A DNA stretch of 5,730 bases, taken from the NCBI GenBank assembly GCA_014378125.1, contig JACMOG010000257.1:1-5730 (forward strand), in the 5' to 3' direction. Of the stretch, positions 1 to 5,730 are shown one piece after another. Every line of letters begins with the position of its first letter. Within the stretch, counting starts at the first letter, position 1. A program made the translations under genes and the position numbers. Source of the stretch: Vitreoscilla sp. (lineage in GTDB: Bacteria; Pseudomonadota; Gammaproteobacteria; Burkholderiales; Burkholderiaceae). Below the pieces are notes generated by a model, which did no database searches, was not told the DNA's origin, and saw only the letters and a program-made list of their open reading frames with translations.

Positions 1-227
1 CCACGCCACCGGTGCGGCGCGAGAACACCGCGTTCAAGCTCAGCTTCGCCGTGGCGAGCCTGGCCGATGCCCGCGCCGCGGCGAAGGCCGCCGGCGGCGA
101 GCTGGACCCGCCCGAGAAGGAATGGGACTTCCAGGGCCTGCGCGTGTGCGACGGCTGCGATCCCGAGGGCAACATGATCCAGGTGCGCGAGGTGGCGGTG
201 GAGACGGACTTGCCCACGGAGGCTTGA
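1..227 (+). CDS. Glyoxalase/bleomycin-resistance (VOC fold) protein, C-terminal part only
   Basis: This is the 3' end of a gene that begins left of the window; the first whole codon is at base 3 and the TGA stop is at 225-227, leaving 74 residues. The segment KLSFAVASLADARAAAKAAG, then a KEWDFQG stretch and a closing DPEGNMIQVRE, is the typical last beta-alpha-beta-beta unit of vicinal-oxygen-chelate proteins. In many members of this family the final glutamate of such an NxIQxxE strand is a metal ligand; here it is the E of QVRE. The segment is too short to tell glyoxalase I, a dioxygenase or a resistance protein apart, so no substrate is proposed. A GTG at 12 could be mistaken for a start, but in-frame coding continues upstream of it to the window edge. 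The gene converges on the SUI1 gene, with a hairpin between the two. Confidence 0.8.
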   Translation, partial: TPPVRRENTAFKLSFAVASLADARAAAKAAGGELDPPEKEWDFQGLRVCDGCDPEGNMIQVREVAVETDLPTEA

Positions 228-247
228 GCGACCCTTCGCCAATGTGG

Positions 248-269
248 ATCCTGCGACTCCGCGCAGGAT
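248..269. terminator. Hairpin between convergent genes, probable bidirectional terminator
   Basis: A perfect 8-bp stem, ATCCTGCG (248-255) and CGCAGGAT (262-269), closes a 6-base loop. It sits in the 57-base gap between the VOC stop at 227 and the SUI1 stop at 285. No clear T-run follows on either strand, so it is not a textbook intrinsic terminator. Position and perfect pairing still favour a 3'-end role for one or both genes. Confidence 0.5.
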
Positions 270-284
270 GGCGTCCTGGACTGA

Positions 285-647
285 CTAGCCGCCCGCCTTC
301 TTCACGTTCTTGAAACCCTGCGCCTGCAGCAGCGCCATCACGCGGTCGCGGTGGTCGCCCTGCAGCTCCACCACGCCGTCCTTGGCGGTGCCACCCACCC
401 CGCAGGCGGACTTGAGCTTCTTGCCCAGCGCCGCCAGCTCGGGCTCGGCCAGGCCCAGGCCGCGCACCACGGTGACGCCCTTGCCGCCGCGGCCCTTGGT
501 CTCGAAGAACAGGCGCACCACGCCGTCGGTAGGCGGCGCCACCGCCTTCTTGCAGGCGCATTGCGCCATCGGCTGGCGGCACACGGGACACATGCGGCCC
601 GCCTCGGTCGAGTAGACCAGGCCGCCATTCGGGTTCACGGGTTTCAT
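285..647 (-). CDS. yciH: SUI1/eIF1-family translation factor (YciH-like)
   Basis: This 120-residue protein belongs to the SUI1 family, the bacterial relatives of eukaryotic initiation factor eIF1. Family knowledge suggests cytoplasmic action on the small ribosomal subunit and start-site selection, but the bacterial role is poorly settled. The core runs from about residue 42 to 117 and includes the basic loop GRGGKGVTVVRGL (residues 52-64) and the ending VMALLQAQGFKNVKKAGG. The N-terminus carries CPVC (20-23) followed by CAC (30-32), a zinc-ribbon-like cysteine cluster I associate with the proteobacterial form. The ATG at 647 gives the usual length. No Shine-Dalgarno precedes it; instead CCAAT ends six bases before the ATG, an arrangement shared with two neighbours (see findings). 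It is convergent with the VOC gene and divergent from the gene at 709, with only 61 bases between the two starts. Confidence 0.92.
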   Translation of the reverse strand: MKPVNPNGGLVYSTEAGRMCPVCRQPMAQCACKKAVAPPTDGVVRLFFETKGRGGKGVTVVRGLGLAEPELAALGKKLKSACGVGGTAKDGVVELQGDHRDRVMALLQAQGFKNVKKAGG

Positions 648-708
648 GCCGCCATTGGAACCGATCCACGCCGCCGGCTCGACCGCGAGGGGATGTGAGA
701 ATCCGCGC

Positions 709-1245
709 ATGACGACGCCACGCCACGCCTTCACGACCGCCACCCGCCTTCTCGCCGCCGCCCTCGCGCTCGCCTTCTCGCAGGCCGCCCTGGCGGTGCC
801 GCCCCTGGTGCAGCACGACGTGGTGCTGCTGCAGAAGGGCGACATCATCGAGCAGCGCGTGGACGGCGGCGCCGACGCGATGTCGGCCTACCTGAAGACG
901 CTGGGCGCGGCGCTCACCGAGACGATGCGCGCCAACCCCCAGCAGCTTCCGACGGCGGGCTTCATCGCGGTGGCGATCCGACCCGGCAACCAGGTGCGCA
1001 GCTGGTTCGACTTCAAGCCCGCCCTGGCCGACAGGACGATGGCCGCGCTGGCGCATGCCGTCGAGACCACGCCCACCCTGCCCGTGAAGAGCGGCGAGAT
1101 CGTGTTCGCGCTGCGGGTGAGCGTGTGGAGCGACAAGCCGCCCAAGTCGTACGCGCCGGCGCCGCCGGAGTGGAAGGACGCGACGAAGGACATGCATCCG
1201 AAGCCCGACATCGACACGCTGGTGGACCTGGTGGGGCCGCCGTGA
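709..1245 (+). CDS. Predicted secreted/periplasmic protein of unknown function
   Basis: This is a 178-residue protein that I do not recognise. The N-terminus is a classical Sec signal: a short basic start (R5, R13), a hydrophobic core LLAAALALAFSQAALA, and a probable signal peptidase I site after AALA at about residue 29, leaving a mature protein that begins VPPLVQHDVV. The mature part has no cysteine and no further membrane segment, so a soluble periplasmic protein is likely. Visible features are a GFIAVAIRPGNQVRSWFDF strand-rich segment, a second strand-like segment EIVFALRVSVW, and a proline-rich C-terminus with YAPAPPEW. An in-frame ATG at 646 would add 21 residues ahead of the signal and overlap the SUI1 start, so I chose 709. 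GAGGGGA lies 15 bases upstream, rather far for ribosome binding, while GAGAAT ends six bases before the ATG. The existence of the gene is supported by signal structure and GC-rich third positions; its function is open. Confidence 0.75.
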   Translation: MTTPRHAFTTATRLLAAALALAFSQAALAVPPLVQHDVVLLQKGDIIEQRVDGGADAMSAYLKTLGAALTETMRANPQQLPTAGFIAVAIRPGNQVRSWFDFKPALADRTMAALAHAVETTPTLPVKSGEIVFALRVSVWSDKPPKSYAPAPPEWKDATKDMHPKPDIDTLVDLVGPP

Positions 1246-2574
1246 GGCGCCGGACGCCCGCCGTCCGGCCCAGCGTCGCGACGACCCCCCCGACGTGGCC
1301 GCCGGCCATCCCGCCGCCGCCGGCCATCCGCGGAATTCTTCCAGCGCCGGCGCGTCGTTCTTGTCGACCCTCTCGACGCGCGTCCGCCGCTGCCCGAACC
1401 TGCCGGCGCGCGCCAGCACGCACACGGGACACTCGATGATGCCGCTCTTTTCTTCGTGGGCCAGGTGCACCACGCCGCACTTGGCGCAGTGGCCGAGGTG
1501 GGTATCCGCGCCCTCGCGCAGGGGCGTGAACACGTCGCGCAGCATGCGGCTGAGCGACACGCCGCAGTCGGCGTCGTAGGTGCAGGCGTAGTAGTCGTAG
1601 GCCCACACCATCGCCTCGAAGGCCTCGACGCCGGCGTCCACCAGGCGGCGCTGCAGGCAGAAGATGGCGGTGGCGCTGAGGCGGCGATGGGCGCTGCCCC
1701 ACAGGTCGCGGTGGTCGCGCGTGCGGTCGCGCGGCGTGCCCTTGTCGCGCTTGGGCTTGGGGTTGAGGGCCTCGGCGATGACGCGCAGTTGCGCCGCGCG
1801 CACGTCGCTGGTTGCCAGCATGCGGTCTTCGACCTCGGTGGGGCGCATCTGGTGACGCAGCATGCCCAGGATCAGGCTGCTGGTGCCGGGCATCAGGAAG
1901 TTGGACGGCGGCCGCCCGGATCGCTTGCTGACCGGCACGCGCTCGGCCACGCGGTAGGCGGCGCTTTCCTCCTGCACGGCGTGGCGGATGAGCACGTACT
2001 CCTGCTCGCAGCACTGCGTGAGCGCGAGCAGCCCGCGCAGGGCGGGCTCGACGCCGTCGTCGTCGTCGGGGCGCAGCAGGCGGTCGATGACGGGATCGCT
2101 CAGGCGCGGCACCGCCAGCAGCGTGCCGGGGTTGCCGCCCCATTCGAGGAACGCGAACGCGGGCAGCTCCTGCAGCGCGGCGATGACGCCGCGGTCGGTG
2201 ATGTCGCACACCAGCGCGGCGCTGGCCGGATCGTCGGCGTAGCGCACGAAGGTGGCCAAGGCCAGGCGGTTGATGCGCTTGACCAGGGGGCGATACACCT
2301 CGTGGTCGGGGGTGAGCATGGGGCGATGCTCGGCCAGGCGCTGCACCAACCGCTCGGTGAGGGCCGGCCGCCAGAGCGCCACCGGCGTGGTGGCCAGGTC
2401 GTCGAGCTGCGCGTCGGGCATGGCCGCCAGCCGCATCGCCACGCCCAGCGGCACGCCGAACAACTCCACGGCGTGCTGGGGGTTGCGGCGCGCCACCTCC
2501 ACCAGGCCCTCGATCAATTCCTCGTTGAGCGTCTTCTGGTCGCTCGGCCCCTTGGTCGCTCCGGTTGGTGTCAT
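1246..2574 (-). CDS. FlhD-FlhD-FlhC-like single-chain transcriptional regulator (3' end uncertain)
   Basis: The start is ATG at 2574, preceded by GGAGGG six bases upstream. Residues 16-73 align without gaps to E. coli FlhD: NPQHAVELFGVPLGVAMRLA and LAAMPDAQLDDLATT match FlhD DKASAMFRLGINEEMATTLA and LAALTLPQMVKLAETN. Residues 101-160 look like a second, diverged FlhD copy (DPASAALVCDI, ALQELPAF). Residues about 232-395 match FlhC: the W292 region, FCLQRRLVDAG, AMVWAYDYY, then a zinc site C363-x2-C366-x15-C382-x2-C385, close to the FlhC Cys pattern. A basic linker (271-290) and an SGRPP stretch (219-223) may touch DNA. FlhD4FlhC2 activates flagellar class II promoters; what this protein controls is unknown. 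Homology is clear to about residue 415 (base 1328). No stop codon exists in any minus frame between 1246 and 1440, and this frame stays open to base 40 across two other genes, so I end it at the convergent gene. Domain calls are from memory of the E. coli sequences. Confidence 0.72.
1249..1269. terminator. GC-rich hairpin just after the secreted-protein stop
   Basis: GCCGGACG (1249-1256) pairs perfectly with CGTCCGGC (1262-1269) around a 5-base loop, starting four bases after the TGA at 1243-1245. There is no T-run. It most likely ends transcription of the secreted-protein gene. It also marks where the convergent FlhD/FlhC-like gene should already have stopped, although that frame stays open across it. 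Confidence 0.5.
1298..1333. repeat. 18-bp tandem duplication near the end of the FlhC-like domain
   Basis: A 14-base identity, GCCGCCGGCCATCC, occurs at 1298-1311 and again at 1316-1329, an 18-base period that keeps the reading frame. On the minus strand it encodes GWPAAA followed by GWPAAT. A run of seven C (1285-1291) lies just beyond it. Both sit exactly where the FlhC-like homology fades and a stop codon would be expected. Confidence 0.7.
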
Positions 2575-2580
2575 CTCATT

Positions 2581-2586
2581 CCCTCC
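2581..2586 (-). promoter_or_regulatory. Shine-Dalgarno deciding the FlhD/FlhC-like start
   Basis: On the minus strand GGAGGG stands six bases before the ATG at 2574. It is the strongest ribosome-binding site tied to a start codon in the window. It fixes the start here rather than at the in-frame GTG 40 codons upstream (2694), and leaves 15 residues ahead of the FlhD-like domain. Confidence 0.8.
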
Positions 2587-2589
2587 GTG

Positions 2590-2606
2590 CCTTGCTTGGT
2601 GCAAGG
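2590..2606 (-). promoter_or_regulatory. Leader hairpin abutting the Shine-Dalgarno
   Basis: In the minus-strand transcript CCTTGC (2606-2601) pairs with GCAAGG (2595-2590) around a 5-base loop, ending three bases before GGAGGG. A second 6-bp inverted repeat lies just upstream at 2610-2627. A hairpin this close could modulate ribosome access, although the pairing does not itself cover the Shine-Dalgarno. Confidence 0.4.
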
Positions 2607-2609
2607 ACT

Positions 2610-2627
2610 GATGGCCAGCGAGCCATC
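2610..2627. repeat. Inverted repeat GATGGC-N6-GCCATC
   Basis: Perfect 6-bp arms at 2610-2615 and 2622-2627 are separated by six bases, close to two helical turns of dyad symmetry over 18 bp. The GATGGC half-site recurs at 2658-2663. It could be a dimer operator in the control region or a leader hairpin of the FlhD/FlhC-like mRNA. Confidence 0.4.
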
Positions 2628-2684
2628 TGTTGTGGGCCTTCGCCACACTTTTTGATCGATGGCCATTTTTGTTGGCGTGATGAA

Positions 2685-2713
2685 AATGTGACACACCTTT
2701 TTTGCCTCATCAA
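2685..2713 (-). promoter_or_regulatory. Weak sigma-70-type promoter candidate for the FlhD/FlhC-like gene
   Basis: On the minus strand TTGATG (2713-2708) and CACATT (2690-2685) are 17 bases apart. The -35 matches consensus in four positions, the -10 only in three. Transcription from it would give a leader of about 100 bases containing both inverted repeats. Best seen as a candidate only. Confidence 0.25.
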
Positions 2714-2784
2714 GGGCCTTTTTGTGGGCATTTTGATGCGAATCGGACTAGACTGGCCGCTCCCCCTAGCTTGGCAAGCCGTCC

Positions 2785-3660
2785 ATGACCGACACCGCGC
2801 CGACCCCCGCCTCGCCAGAAATCGATCTCCCGTCCGAGCCCGCGCTGAGCTTGGGCGTGCGCCGGCTGCTGATCTCCTTCGGCGTCAAGGAGCACAACCA
2901 CGCCTCCGAGATCGCCCGCATCATCGACGTCGATCGCTCGCAGTCGTACCGCCGGTTGAAGGGCGACGTGGCATGGAGCCACACCGACCTGCGGGCGATC
3001 GCCCATCATTTCGGTGCGCCCACCGACTGCCTGCTGCCGCACGACGACCTCGCGCGCCTCGCCCATCACGGCCCCGAGGCGGTACCGGCCGTCATTCGCG
3101 TGGCGCACCTGCCGCCCACCGGCCTGCTGGTGCCCGGCCCCGAGCTCGCGCCCGGTGACAGCAGCGACCTGGTGGCCGTCCGCGTGGGCGCGGCCTGGGA
3201 GATCCACGTGAACGGCGACGAGCCCTTCGGCGCCCGCCGCCATGCCATCGAGGCGCTCACGGTGCGCAGCCACCCGCATTTGCAGGTGGCGCTGCTGGAA
3301 GACGACACACGCGCCGCCGACGCCCTGGTGGAGGCCTTCCGCCCGCTGGGCATCGTGGCCACGCCCTTCGTCGACAGCGCCTCGCTGCGCGCGGCCATCG
3401 CGCACCGCCGCTTCGACGCCTACGTGCTCGACTGGCTGCTCGGCGAAGGCACGGCGGCTTCCGTCGTGGAACAGATCCGGCAACACCGGCCGCACGTTCC
3501 CGTGGTGGTGGTCACGGGCGCGCTGATGGCCGATTCCGAGATGGAGCAGAGCCTGCTGGCGCTGTCGGCGCAGTGGAACTTCTCCACGCTCGACAAGCCC
3601 GTGCGGCCGATGAACCTGGCCAACGCGATCAAGCAGCTGGTGGCGGCCGCGCGGGCCTGA
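2785..3660 (+). CDS. Response regulator with N-terminal helix-turn-helix and C-terminal receiver
   Basis: This 291-residue protein has an unusual order, DNA-binding first and receiver last. Residues about 23-85 form a helix-turn-helix (ASEIARIIDVDRSQSYRRLK, then LRAIAHHFG) resembling the BetR-type domain. A middle segment (about 95-160) has no domain I can name. The receiver starts at about 165: E172-D173-D174 supply the acidic pocket, D216 in YVLDWLLGEG is the expected phosphorylation site, T244 in VVTGA and K271 in LDKPVRP complete the conserved set. A phosphorylatable, DNA-binding cytoplasmic regulator is therefore well supported. No histidine kinase is in the window, so it may be an orphan or be served from elsewhere. 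ATG 2785 is the first start after an in-frame TAG at 2767; no good Shine-Dalgarno is visible. It is divergent from the FlhD/FlhC-like gene across 210 bases, which suggests auto- or cross-regulation, an inference only. Confidence 0.88.
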   Translation: MTDTAPTPASPEIDLPSEPALSLGVRRLLISFGVKEHNHASEIARIIDVDRSQSYRRLKGDVAWSHTDLRAIAHHFGAPTDCLLPHDDLARLAHHGPEAVPAVIRVAHLPPTGLLVPGPELAPGDSSDLVAVRVGAAWEIHVNGDEPFGARRHAIEALTVRSHPHLQVALLEDDTRAADALVEAFRPLGIVATPFVDSASLRAAIAHRRFDAYVLDWLLGEGTAASVVEQIRQHRPHVPVVVVTGALMADSEMEQSLLALSAQWNFSTLDKPVRPMNLANAIKQLVAAARA

Positions 3661-3667
3661 GGCCCGC
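3651..3667. terminator. Hairpin with the response-regulator stop codon in its loop
   Basis: GCGGGCC (3651-3657) pairs with GGCCCGC (3661-3667), and the three-base loop is the TGA stop itself (3658-3660). It lies in the short gap between convergent genes (stops at 3660 and 3688), so it may terminate both. There is no T-run and the loop is tight. Confidence 0.4.
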
Positions 3668-3687
3668 CCGCCCTCCGCCTCAGGTGC

Positions 3688-4620
3688 TCACAGCAGCCAG
3701 GAGAAGAAGATCAGGTACAGCCCGCCCAGGATCGCCACCCACTTCGACACGTAGTACACGCGCCGATGGCTGGCCTTGAGCTTCTTGGCCTGCAGGCGCA
3801 GCTTGTAGGCGTTCTGGAAGAATCGATTGATGCCGCCCACGCGCTCGCCCGCCTCGTTGGGCGATGCCGACGCGGACATGATGTGGTCGGCGAACCAGCG
3901 GTTGAGGGCGGCCAGCGGGCGGCCGTGCAGCGGACGCTCGATGTCGCAGAACAGGATCACGCGCTGCTGGTCGGTGGTGTTGGCGGCGTGGTGGATGAAG
4001 GTCTCGTCGAACACCACCGCCTCGCCGTCCTTCCAGAAGTAGCGCTGGCCATCGACCTCGATGTAGCAGTCCGGCGAGTTGGGCGTGGCCAGGCCCAGGT
4101 GGTAGCGCAGCGAGCCGGCGTACGGGTCGCGGTGGCGCACCAGCTTGCCCTCGGGCGGCAGCGACGCGAACATCGCGCCCTTGATGGACGGGATCTGGTT
4201 GAGCAGCTCCACCGTGCGCGGGCACGAGGTGCGCGCCGAGGCCAGCTCCTCGCCGTACCATTTCAGGTAGAAGCGCTTCCAGCCCGACCGGAAGAACGAG
4301 TTGAAGCCCATGTCGTTGTAGCCGGTGGCCACGCCGATGCGGCCCGCGTCGTTCAGGCTGAGGGCCTCGGCGCGGATCTCTTCCCAGTGGGCCTGCAGGG
4401 GCGCCAGGTCGGGAAACGCGCTCACGGGCGCGTACGGGCGAGCCTTCACGCGCGAGAACAGCACCATCAGCATGTTGTACGGCGCCAGCAGCACCGTGTA
4501 GTCGGTGAACGCCTTCATCAGGCCGAAGCGGGCGCGTCCGCGCAGGTGCACGAAGGCCGCCGATCCCATGAGGAGCACGAAGAGGCCGACGCGGATCGCG
4601 ATGGAATACGGATGAGTCAT
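3688..4620 (-). CDS. lpxO: LpxO-like Fe(II)/2-oxoglutarate lipid A hydroxylase (AspH family)
   Basis: This 310-residue protein carries the aspartyl/asparaginyl beta-hydroxylase fold with hydrophobic segments at both ends (about 6-25 and 291-310), the layout of LpxO. LpxO adds a 2-hydroxyl to a secondary acyl chain of lipid A at the inner membrane using Fe(II), O2 and 2-oxoglutarate. The catalytic pattern is visible: H163 in HRDPYAGSLRYHLGL, H210 in FDETFIHHAANT, and R220 in QQRVILFCDIERP. The spacing H163-H210 (47) and H210-R220 (10) closely parallels the two histidines and the 2-oxoglutarate arginine of mammalian AspH. The region LLAPYNMLMVLFSRVKA followed by FPDL and HWEEIRAEA also recalls Salmonella LpxO. 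The ATG at 4620 is the only start after an in-frame stop at 4653-4651; no Shine-Dalgarno is clear. A peptide or other small-molecule hydroxylase of the same family cannot be excluded. It is divergent from dapC and has no obvious functional link to it. Confidence 0.82.
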   Translation of the reverse strand: MTHPYSIAIRVGLFVLLMGSAAFVHLRGRARFGLMKAFTDYTVLLAPYNMLMVLFSRVKARPYAPVSAFPDLAPLQAHWEEIRAEALSLNDAGRIGVATGYNDMGFNSFFRSGWKRFYLKWYGEELASARTSCPRTVELLNQIPSIKGAMFASLPPEGKLVRHRDPYAGSLRYHLGLATPNSPDCYIEVDGQRYFWKDGEAVVFDETFIHHAANTTDQQRVILFCDIERPLHGRPLAALNRWFADHIMSASASPNEAGERVGGINRFFQNAYKLRLQAKKLKASHRRVYYVSKWVAILGGLYLIFFSWLL

Positions 4621-4734
4621 GGGGTGCGCAACGCCGGCGGCGCCGCAGCATCAGGAGGAAACCCGTATTTTGCCCGAAGCCTCGCCTGCCGAGTTCGAAA
4701 CCCGCAAGCGGCGCCCAGCCTCGATAATCGGGGC
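4621..4734. promoter_or_regulatory. Divergent lpxO/dapC intergenic region
   Basis: These 114 bases must carry both promoters. On the plus strand there is a perfect AGGAGG (4653-4658) not placed before any ATG or GTG start, and GATAAT (4723-4728), five of six matches to a -10 box, six bases before the dapC ATG. No convincing -35 is found at 16-18 bases from it. Nothing decisive is seen for lpxO. Confidence 0.45.
4723..4728 (+). promoter_or_regulatory. -10 box abutting the dapC start (possible leaderless mRNA)
   Basis: GATAAT matches TATAAT in five of six positions. The ATG begins seven bases after its last T, the normal distance to a transcription start, so the mRNA could begin at the A of ATG. 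There is no Shine-Dalgarno directly before the ATG, in agreement with this. The lack of a good -35 keeps the call modest. Confidence 0.35.
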
Positions 4735-5730
4735 ATGAACCCGCTGCTCGGCACGCTGCACCCCTACCCGTTCGAACGTTGGCGCCTGCTCGCCAGGGAT
4801 GTCGTCCCCTCGCCGGCCCACCGCCCCATCAGCCTGGGCCTGGGCGAGCCGCGGCACGCCACGCCGCAGCTCATCAAGGACGCCATCACCGGCCACCTGG
4901 CCGGCCTGGCGGTGTGGCGGCCCACCCTGGGAGAAGCCGGGCTGGGCGGGGCGAACGCCGACTGGGCGCGGCGGCGCTACGGGGTAGCGCTCGATCCTGC
5001 CACGCAGCTGCTGCCTGTGAACGGCTCGCGCGAGGCGCTGTTCTCGTTCGCCCAGGTGGCGGTCGATCCGACGTGGCGCGGACGACCGGGCACCCAGCCT
5101 CCCATCGTGCTGTGCCCCAACCCGTTCTACCAGATCTACGAGGGCGCGGCCCTGCTGGCGGGCGCCGGGACGGCCTTCGCCAACAGCGACCCCGCGCGCA
5201 ACTTCGCGGCCGACTGGGGCGCCATCGACGCCGCCACCTGGGCCCGCACCCAGCTGATGTTCGTGTGCTCGCCGGGCAATCCCACCGGTGCGGTGATGCC
5301 GCTGGACGAATGGCGCACGCTGTTCGCGCTGAGCGACCGCCACGGCTTCGTCATCGCCAGCGACGAGTGCTACTCCGAGATCTTCTTCGGGCCCGAAGAC
5401 GCGCCGCCGCTGGGCGCGCTGGACGCCGCCCGCCAGCTGGGACGCACCGACTTCCGCAACCTGCTGGTGTTCACCTCGCTGTCCAAGCGCTCCAACGTGC
5501 CCGGCCTGCGCTCGGGCTTCGTGGCCGGCGACGCGGCGCTCGTCAAGGCATTCCTGCTGTATCGCACCTACCACGGCAGCGCCATGAGCCCGGTGGTGCA
5601 GGCGGCCAGCGAGGCGGCCTGGCGCGACGAGGCCCACGTGCGCGACAACCGCGAGATCTACCGCCGCAAGTTCGCCCAGGTCACGCCGATGCTGTCCGGG
5701 CCGCTCGACGTGCGCCTGCCCGACGCCGGC
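4735..5730 (+). CDS. dapC: N-succinyldiaminopimelate aminotransferase DapC, 5' part
   Basis: The first 332 codons of a PLP-dependent aminotransferase are present, with no stop before the window edge. DapC converts N-succinyl-2-amino-6-ketopimelate to N-succinyl-LL-2,6-diaminopimelate with glutamate as donor, in the cytosolic route to meso-DAP and lysine. The fold-type I landmarks are in order: PVNGSREALFSFAQ (94-107), CPNPFYQIYEGAA (127-139), SPGNPTG (179-185) with N182, SDECYSE (209-215) with D210 and Y213, and SLSKRSNVPGLRSGF (248-262) with the Schiff-base lysine K251 and phosphate-binding R259. The family usually has about 400 residues, so the missing part is the small-domain end with the substrate-carboxylate arginine. 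The start at MNPLLGTLHPYPFERWR matches the usual N-terminus. Residues 60-76 differ markedly from the family: the normal YPxTxGxxxLRxAIA motif reads VWRPTLGEAGLGGANA. This leaves identity secure but activity open to doubt. Confidence 0.95.
   Translation, partial: MNPLLGTLHPYPFERWRLLARDVVPSPAHRPISLGLGEPRHATPQLIKDAITGHLAGLAVWRPTLGEAGLGGANADWARRRYGVALDPATQLLPVNGSREALFSFAQVAVDPTWRGRPGTQPPIVLCPNPFYQIYEGAALLAGAGTAFANSDPARNFAADWGAIDAATWARTQLMFVCSPGNPTGAVMPLDEWRTLFALSDRHGFVIASDECYSEIFFGPEDAPPLGALDAARQLGRTDFRNLLVFTSLSKRSNVPGLRSGFVAGDAALVKAFLLYRTYHGSAMSPVVQAASEAAWRDEAHVRDNREIYRRKFAQVTPMLSGPLDVRLPDAG

Follow-up and report, generated by a model that had tools for sequence, protein, structure and literature searches.

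The ddc gene and its product

We analyzed a stretch of 5,730 nucleotides from Vitreoscilla sp. (GenBank assembly GCA_014378125.1, contig JACMOG010000257.1, positions 1 to 5,730 of the forward strand), which is called the window throughout, and in it a minus-strand gene that we name ddc. FlhD and FlhC are normally separate proteins that come together as the master switch of swimming motility. The ddc product is a single chain with an FlhD-like unit (D1), a probable second unit of this kind (D2) and an FlhC-like domain (C). These parts are placed as follows:

1273..2574, minus strand: ddc gene, encoding a single-chain FlhD-FlhD-FlhC-like protein; start ATG at 2574; the conserved protein probably terminates at about 1273
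2581..2586, minus strand: GGAGGG, Shine-Dalgarno-like, before the ATG at 2574, read directly in the sequence
2323..2553, minus strand: D1, FlhD-like unit 1, residues 8-84; helices 11-30, 32-39, 43-51 and 54-61, strand 68-70, helix 74-78
1939..2310, minus strand: D2, probable FlhD-like unit 2, residues 89-212; helices 89-112, 116-123, 128-135 and 141-144, strand 154-156, helix 160-166, and two further helices, 177-186 and 190-211
1384..1911, minus strand: C, FlhC-like domain, residues 222-397
1420..1488, minus strand: cysteines C363, C366, C382 and C385 (CxxC-x15-CxxC) of the putative zinc site

An earlier note on this DNA had proposed the D-D-C architecture, and the residues that it quoted are encoded by the minus-strand frame from the ATG at 2574. 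It had ended the gene at 1328, where there is no stop; the frame runs for 844 codons before a stop and reaches window position 40. The likely end of the conserved protein is near 1273, judging from homologue P0002, which is 99% identical to the window protein and 434 residues long, and from the length of 424-447 residues in most full-length homologues. Over the stretch 40-1272 (minus strand) the ddc frame continues without a stop past the end of the near-identical P0002, antisense to other genes; this run-on is either a sequencing error or a real extension. In the window, as in genomes G001-G004 and G498, all parts are located on one stop-free open frame, unlike the separate FlhD and FlhC proteins.

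Comparison with FlhD and FlhC

Support for the proposed architecture is strong in the case of D1 and C and moderate in that of D2. The first comparisons were made with divergent relatives, among them loci L020-L027, L063 and L070, which had been fetched through the ddc profile, and were rerun without those; the values moved from 96.5 to 95.8 for C and from 91-92 to 83 for D1. With this reduced set the D1 and C profile comparisons each beat every shuffle (0/60 each). D1 shows the FlhD fold together with a profile relation to FlhD, and C shows the FlhC fold together with a profile relation to FlhC, with about 13-26% identity to the comparison sets of FlhD and FlhC. Chance resemblance of these two parts is ruled out by the agreement of profiles and fold. 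The gap-free alignment of D1 with a single FlhD sequence is not clearly above shuffles (44, against a mean of 32.3 and a maximum of 47 in 40 shuffles). In a PDB sequence search the single ddc sequence returned one unrelated row (E 0.53) and a 41-row profile returned none. PF05247 is absent from the Pfam listing of the window protein even at E <= 10, and by Pfam's standard ddc should be classed neither as FlhD nor as FlhC. An identity with Auto_anti-p27 (Pfam) or PRK00420 (NCBIfam) was rejected, as these matches lie far below the cut-offs, over the cysteine region.

W292 and the four cysteines, which had also been pointed out before, are invariant in 32/32 aligned homologues. The motif provides the two CxxC pairs that form the zinc site in FlhC, and by analogy C363, C366, C382 and C385 would bind zinc.

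Analysis of the middle part of the chain indicates that D2 is probably an FlhD-like unit. When the D1 profile was scanned against the full protein, allowing one gap, the best other place was residue 98, with a score of 16.9 (the next was 7.8); this score was matched by 3/500 shuffles and its register is that of the predicted helices. Alignment of D1 against D2 with hhalign covers 65 columns in the same register. A profile of FlhD and D1 also finds D2 in the register of the internal repeat: with the set partly chosen through ddc the result was equalled by 0/60 and 2/60 shuffles (hhalign probability 5.1 and 3.3), and with the clean set by 3/100 and 3/100 (hhalign probability 2-3). In the full model D1 and D2 share the element order H-H-H-H-E-H (H, helix; E, strand). 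Matched to a single FlhD sequence without gaps, D2 scores 29, below the shuffle mean of 32.7. A structure search with a model of D2 alone gave no FlhD row, which is little informative as this model is poor.

Predicted structure and assembly

The model of the full ddc monomer has a predicted template modelling score (pTM) of 0.84. By the alignment registers, strands 68-70 in D1 and 154-156 in D2 fall at the position of FlhD Cys65, which is described as disulfide-bonded across FlhD dimers (PMC3510510). The two strands most likely pair with each other, because the only remaining strands in the model, two in number, are near the zinc site; such pairing suggests that D1 and D2 form an intrachain FlhD2 pseudo-dimer. 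We infer that two ddc chains make D4C2. The DNA box of FlhD4C2 is described as two inverted repeats and the complex as a ring (PMC3510510). The DNA is reported to wrap around FlhC, and the opposite earlier view is also mentioned there (PMC3510510).

The ddc family and its hosts

A search of 5.8 billion proteins, of which the best 7,998 candidates were scored, gave at least 89 homologous protein clusters. No FlhD or FlhC domain is listed for any of the 89 rows, and one row (P0089) lists PF01855. An alignment-based second search gave 99 matches, including ten that the first had not returned (P0100-P0109, 35-38% identical); together with P0094 from locus L019 they constitute a second ddc subfamily with the same three parts. 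The homologous clusters and the further divergent ones indicate that ddc is a real gene. It was found in 1 of 399 genomes sampled from the order, while 13 of 399 family-sampled genomes match it at E <= 0.01, five over the full length and eight weakly and in part. All four genomes searched from the genus of G003, including the genome of L004, carry ddc, and so does the one genome searched from the genus of G498. L004 comes from Scleromatobacter humisilvae, a member of the Sphaerotilaceae (Burkholderiales). As judged from these sequences, the family is narrow among the genomes searched and is carried by some bacteria related to Scleromatobacter.

The survey of ddc genomes for separate flhD and flhC that had been suggested earlier found ordinary flhD in all four genomes of L001-L004 and ordinary flhC in three of them; in the fourth (G003) flhD stops 25 bases short of the contig end. 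The targets of ddc are probably not flagellar class 2 genes, because hosts where this is visible keep ordinary flhD and flhC. Their presence is consistent with ddc controlling something other than flagella.

Likeness to known systems

With FlhDC (FlhD4C2; PDB 2avu and 8j56; FlhD 1g8e) ddc shares the fold of D1 and C, the helix order, the CxxC...CxxC motif and the 2:1 ratio of D to C. Unlike FlhDC, which is made of two chains, ddc is one gene and one chain; it has two non-identical D units, is not recognised by PF05247 and PF05280, has non-flagellar neighbours in the window and exists in hosts that also hold the ordinary pair. Other examples of the superfamily are AcaCD of IncA/C plasmids and SetCD of SXT/R391 elements, FlhDC-like activators of conjugation (PMC4207636, PMC4605294), which resemble our reading of ddc as FlhDC-family complexes controlling non-flagellar functions and were reported to be non-exchangeable (PMC4207636). 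These are two separate proteins on mobile elements, whereas a tblastn search of 72,556 plasmid and 50,697 phage records, which did not extend to integrated elements, gave no match to ddc, and on this result a plasmid- or phage-borne AcaCD-like regulator was rejected. The neighbours of ddc in the window look chromosomal.

The nearest sequence bridge from ddc to FlhDC is formed by unfused pairs of FlhD-like and FlhC-like proteins in the same bacterial family (L020-L026, L063 and L070), in which the ddc profile weakly matches the FlhC-like member and an FlhD-like gene lies upstream. They differ from ddc in having two genes and short proteins, and P0096 (L070) has no FlhC match in Pfam. In three other Burkholderiales genomes we found FlhC-FlhC tandem proteins with two FlhC stretches each by Pfam and NCBIfam (L057:466-1719, minus; L058:953-2548, minus; L059:1580-3058, plus); an FlhD-like frame directly precedes each of them in the same orientation. 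Like ddc, they fuse subunits of one complex, in the same bacterial order; unlike ddc, they are C-C and not D-D-C, and D stays separate. The D-D-C chain is a fusion of known subunits. In the literature searched, which covered few subscription papers, no paper listed deals with a fused FlhD-FlhC or D-D-C architecture, and none of its papers contains the wording 'FlhC family transcriptional regulator' or 'BetR domain'.

The divergent gene and the shared control region

Upstream of ddc there is a divergent gene, betR-rec, and a region common to both:

2785..3660, plus strand: betR-rec gene, divergent from ddc; N-terminal BetR domain (residues 25-88), C-terminal receiver domain (168-282)
2575..2784: intergenic region common to ddc and betR-rec, conserved in the window and L001-L004 (5/5)
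2721-2729: intergenic block TTTGTGGGC, kept in 5/5 loci
2687-2696: intergenic block TGTGACACAC, between the direct repeats, kept in 5/5 loci
2670-2676: intergenic block TGTTGGC, kept in 5/5 loci

The receiver domain retains E172, D173, D174, D216, T244 and K271, which we take to be residues with receiver-domain roles. The gene adjoins ddc divergently in L001-L004 (78-84% identical) and also in the distant L019 (38%). A BetR-receiver relative (E <= 1e-12) is present in 22 of 299 sampled family genomes, the five closest being those of the five ddc genomes; the relatives in genomes that lack ddc (17/299) have best identities of 24-36%, and in seven loci of about 3.8 kb each from such genomes no ddc is located beside them. 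Window positions 2661-2736 contain two 23-base direct repeats that are 74% alike and 53 bases apart from start to start; TTTGTGGGC and TGTTGGC belong to this repeat. The repeats, with TGTGACACAC between them, are a candidate operator. Across five genomes the exact paired pattern appears in two only, solely at the ddc/betR-rec place, and no regulon emerged; a promoter scan of 2400-2900 found none.

Neighbouring genes

Except for betR-rec, the window holds four other genes around ddc:

288-659, minus strand: SUI1/YciH-family protein
709-1245, plus strand: protein without family assignment
3691-4620, minus strand: LpxO-like hydroxylase
from 4735, plus strand, cut by the window end: DapC-like aminotransferase

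The neighbours are non-flagellar, as the earlier note had observed. The flanks of related ddc loci were compared with the genes of the window only. In S. humisilvae (L004:7357-9259) two extra frames separate ddc from its conserved neighbour, one of at most 489 residues with a CEHGCVYC stretch resembling radical-SAM proteins and the other of 275 residues.

Proposed mechanism and alternatives

We consider it rather probable that ddc is a self-contained transcription regulator of the FlhDC family, with a D1/D2 pseudo-dimer, chains pairing to D4C2, control through betR-rec and non-flagellar targets. The model and the positions of the strands suggest that D1 and D2 pack within one chain in the manner of an FlhD dimer, with D2 the weaker case. 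The FlhC-like domain with its zinc site would make most of the DNA contact, by analogy with the DNA around FlhC (PMC3510510). Two chains may then pair into a D4C2 that binds a two-part DNA box and activates promoters, as can be suggested from FlhDC, AcaCD and SetCD (PMC4605294, PMC4207636). A single chain would fix the 2:1 ratio and limit mixing with the cell's ordinary FlhD and FlhC. The BetR-receiver protein, which shares the conserved control region, probably times ddc expression on phosphorylation, and the genes so controlled would probably be other than flagellar class 2 genes.

Several results weigh against this regulator. PF05247 and PF05280 are listed by Pfam for 0/32 ddc members at E <= 0.1, and the Foldseek E-values of the ddc model are 0.14 and above. 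The one-gap scan is less clear with FlhC profiles, where 3/200 and 7/200 shuffles are as high, and residues 222-289 alone do not exceed shuffles. In the divergent host G498 flhC was not found (0/1; only flhC was sought, in a 1.7 Mb assembly that is perhaps incomplete). For D2, direct comparison with canonical FlhD profiles stays at shuffle level, the direct FlhD scan ranks its place 19 of 370 or 18 of 359, and its best alignment with the FlhD-like set is in the wrong register. The hhalign score of D1 against D2 is equalled by 9/150 shuffles, the match of D2 to the FlhD and D1 profile has an hhalign probability of 2-5, and the model of D2 alone is poor (predicted local distance difference test, pLDDT, 72.5; pTM 0.37). 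Such a poor fold is expected if D2 needs D1, and would equally result if the hypothesis were wrong. The shuffle-level direct tests and this lone model, with the modest indirect tests (3/100 shuffles), favour another option, a D-x-C chain in which only D1 and C are related to FlhD and FlhC, with an unrelated helical spacer (residues 89-212) between them. It is opposed by the internal repeat with its score, shuffle count and helix register, by the FlhD and D1 profile that places D2 in the same register, and by the common element order of D1 and D2. The rerun on the set without ddc-fetched loci slightly lowered our confidence in the regulator and raised the spacer option, which we hold to be unlikely.

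The monomer model, confident by itself, could also describe a D2C half-complex acting on a single half-site, or a chain in some oligomer other than D4C2. The paired inverted repeats and the ring form described for FlhD4C2 speak against this (PMC3510510), and we find it quite unlikely. It could further be suggested, from the ordinary flhD and flhC in the host genomes, that the D-D-C chain acts with one or both of their products, either joining them in a hybrid complex or tuning the flagellar switch as an antagonist. Yet the chain already contains a D2C unit, shared interfaces with the ordinary proteins are doubtful because D1 and C are so distant from them in sequence, and the non-exchangeability reported for AcaCD and SetCD (PMC4207636) points the same way; such mixing seems distinctly improbable.

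Returning to the self-contained regulator, we tentatively suggest, as a serious possibility, that ddc is a natural single-gene FlhD4C2: a homodimerising chain insulated from the cell's FlhD and FlhC, with a dedicated BetR-receiver switch and a non-flagellar regulon. Together with the C-C tandems, this would mean that Burkholderiales have covalently rewired the FlhDC complex at least twice. A family so far known only as 'hypothetical protein' gains a place in the FlhDC superfamily, and its built-in 2:1 chain would be a simple handle on the FlhDC complex, with one gene, a fixed stoichiometry and two D positions open to separate study. It also raises the question of how one cell keeps two FlhDC-type switches apart.
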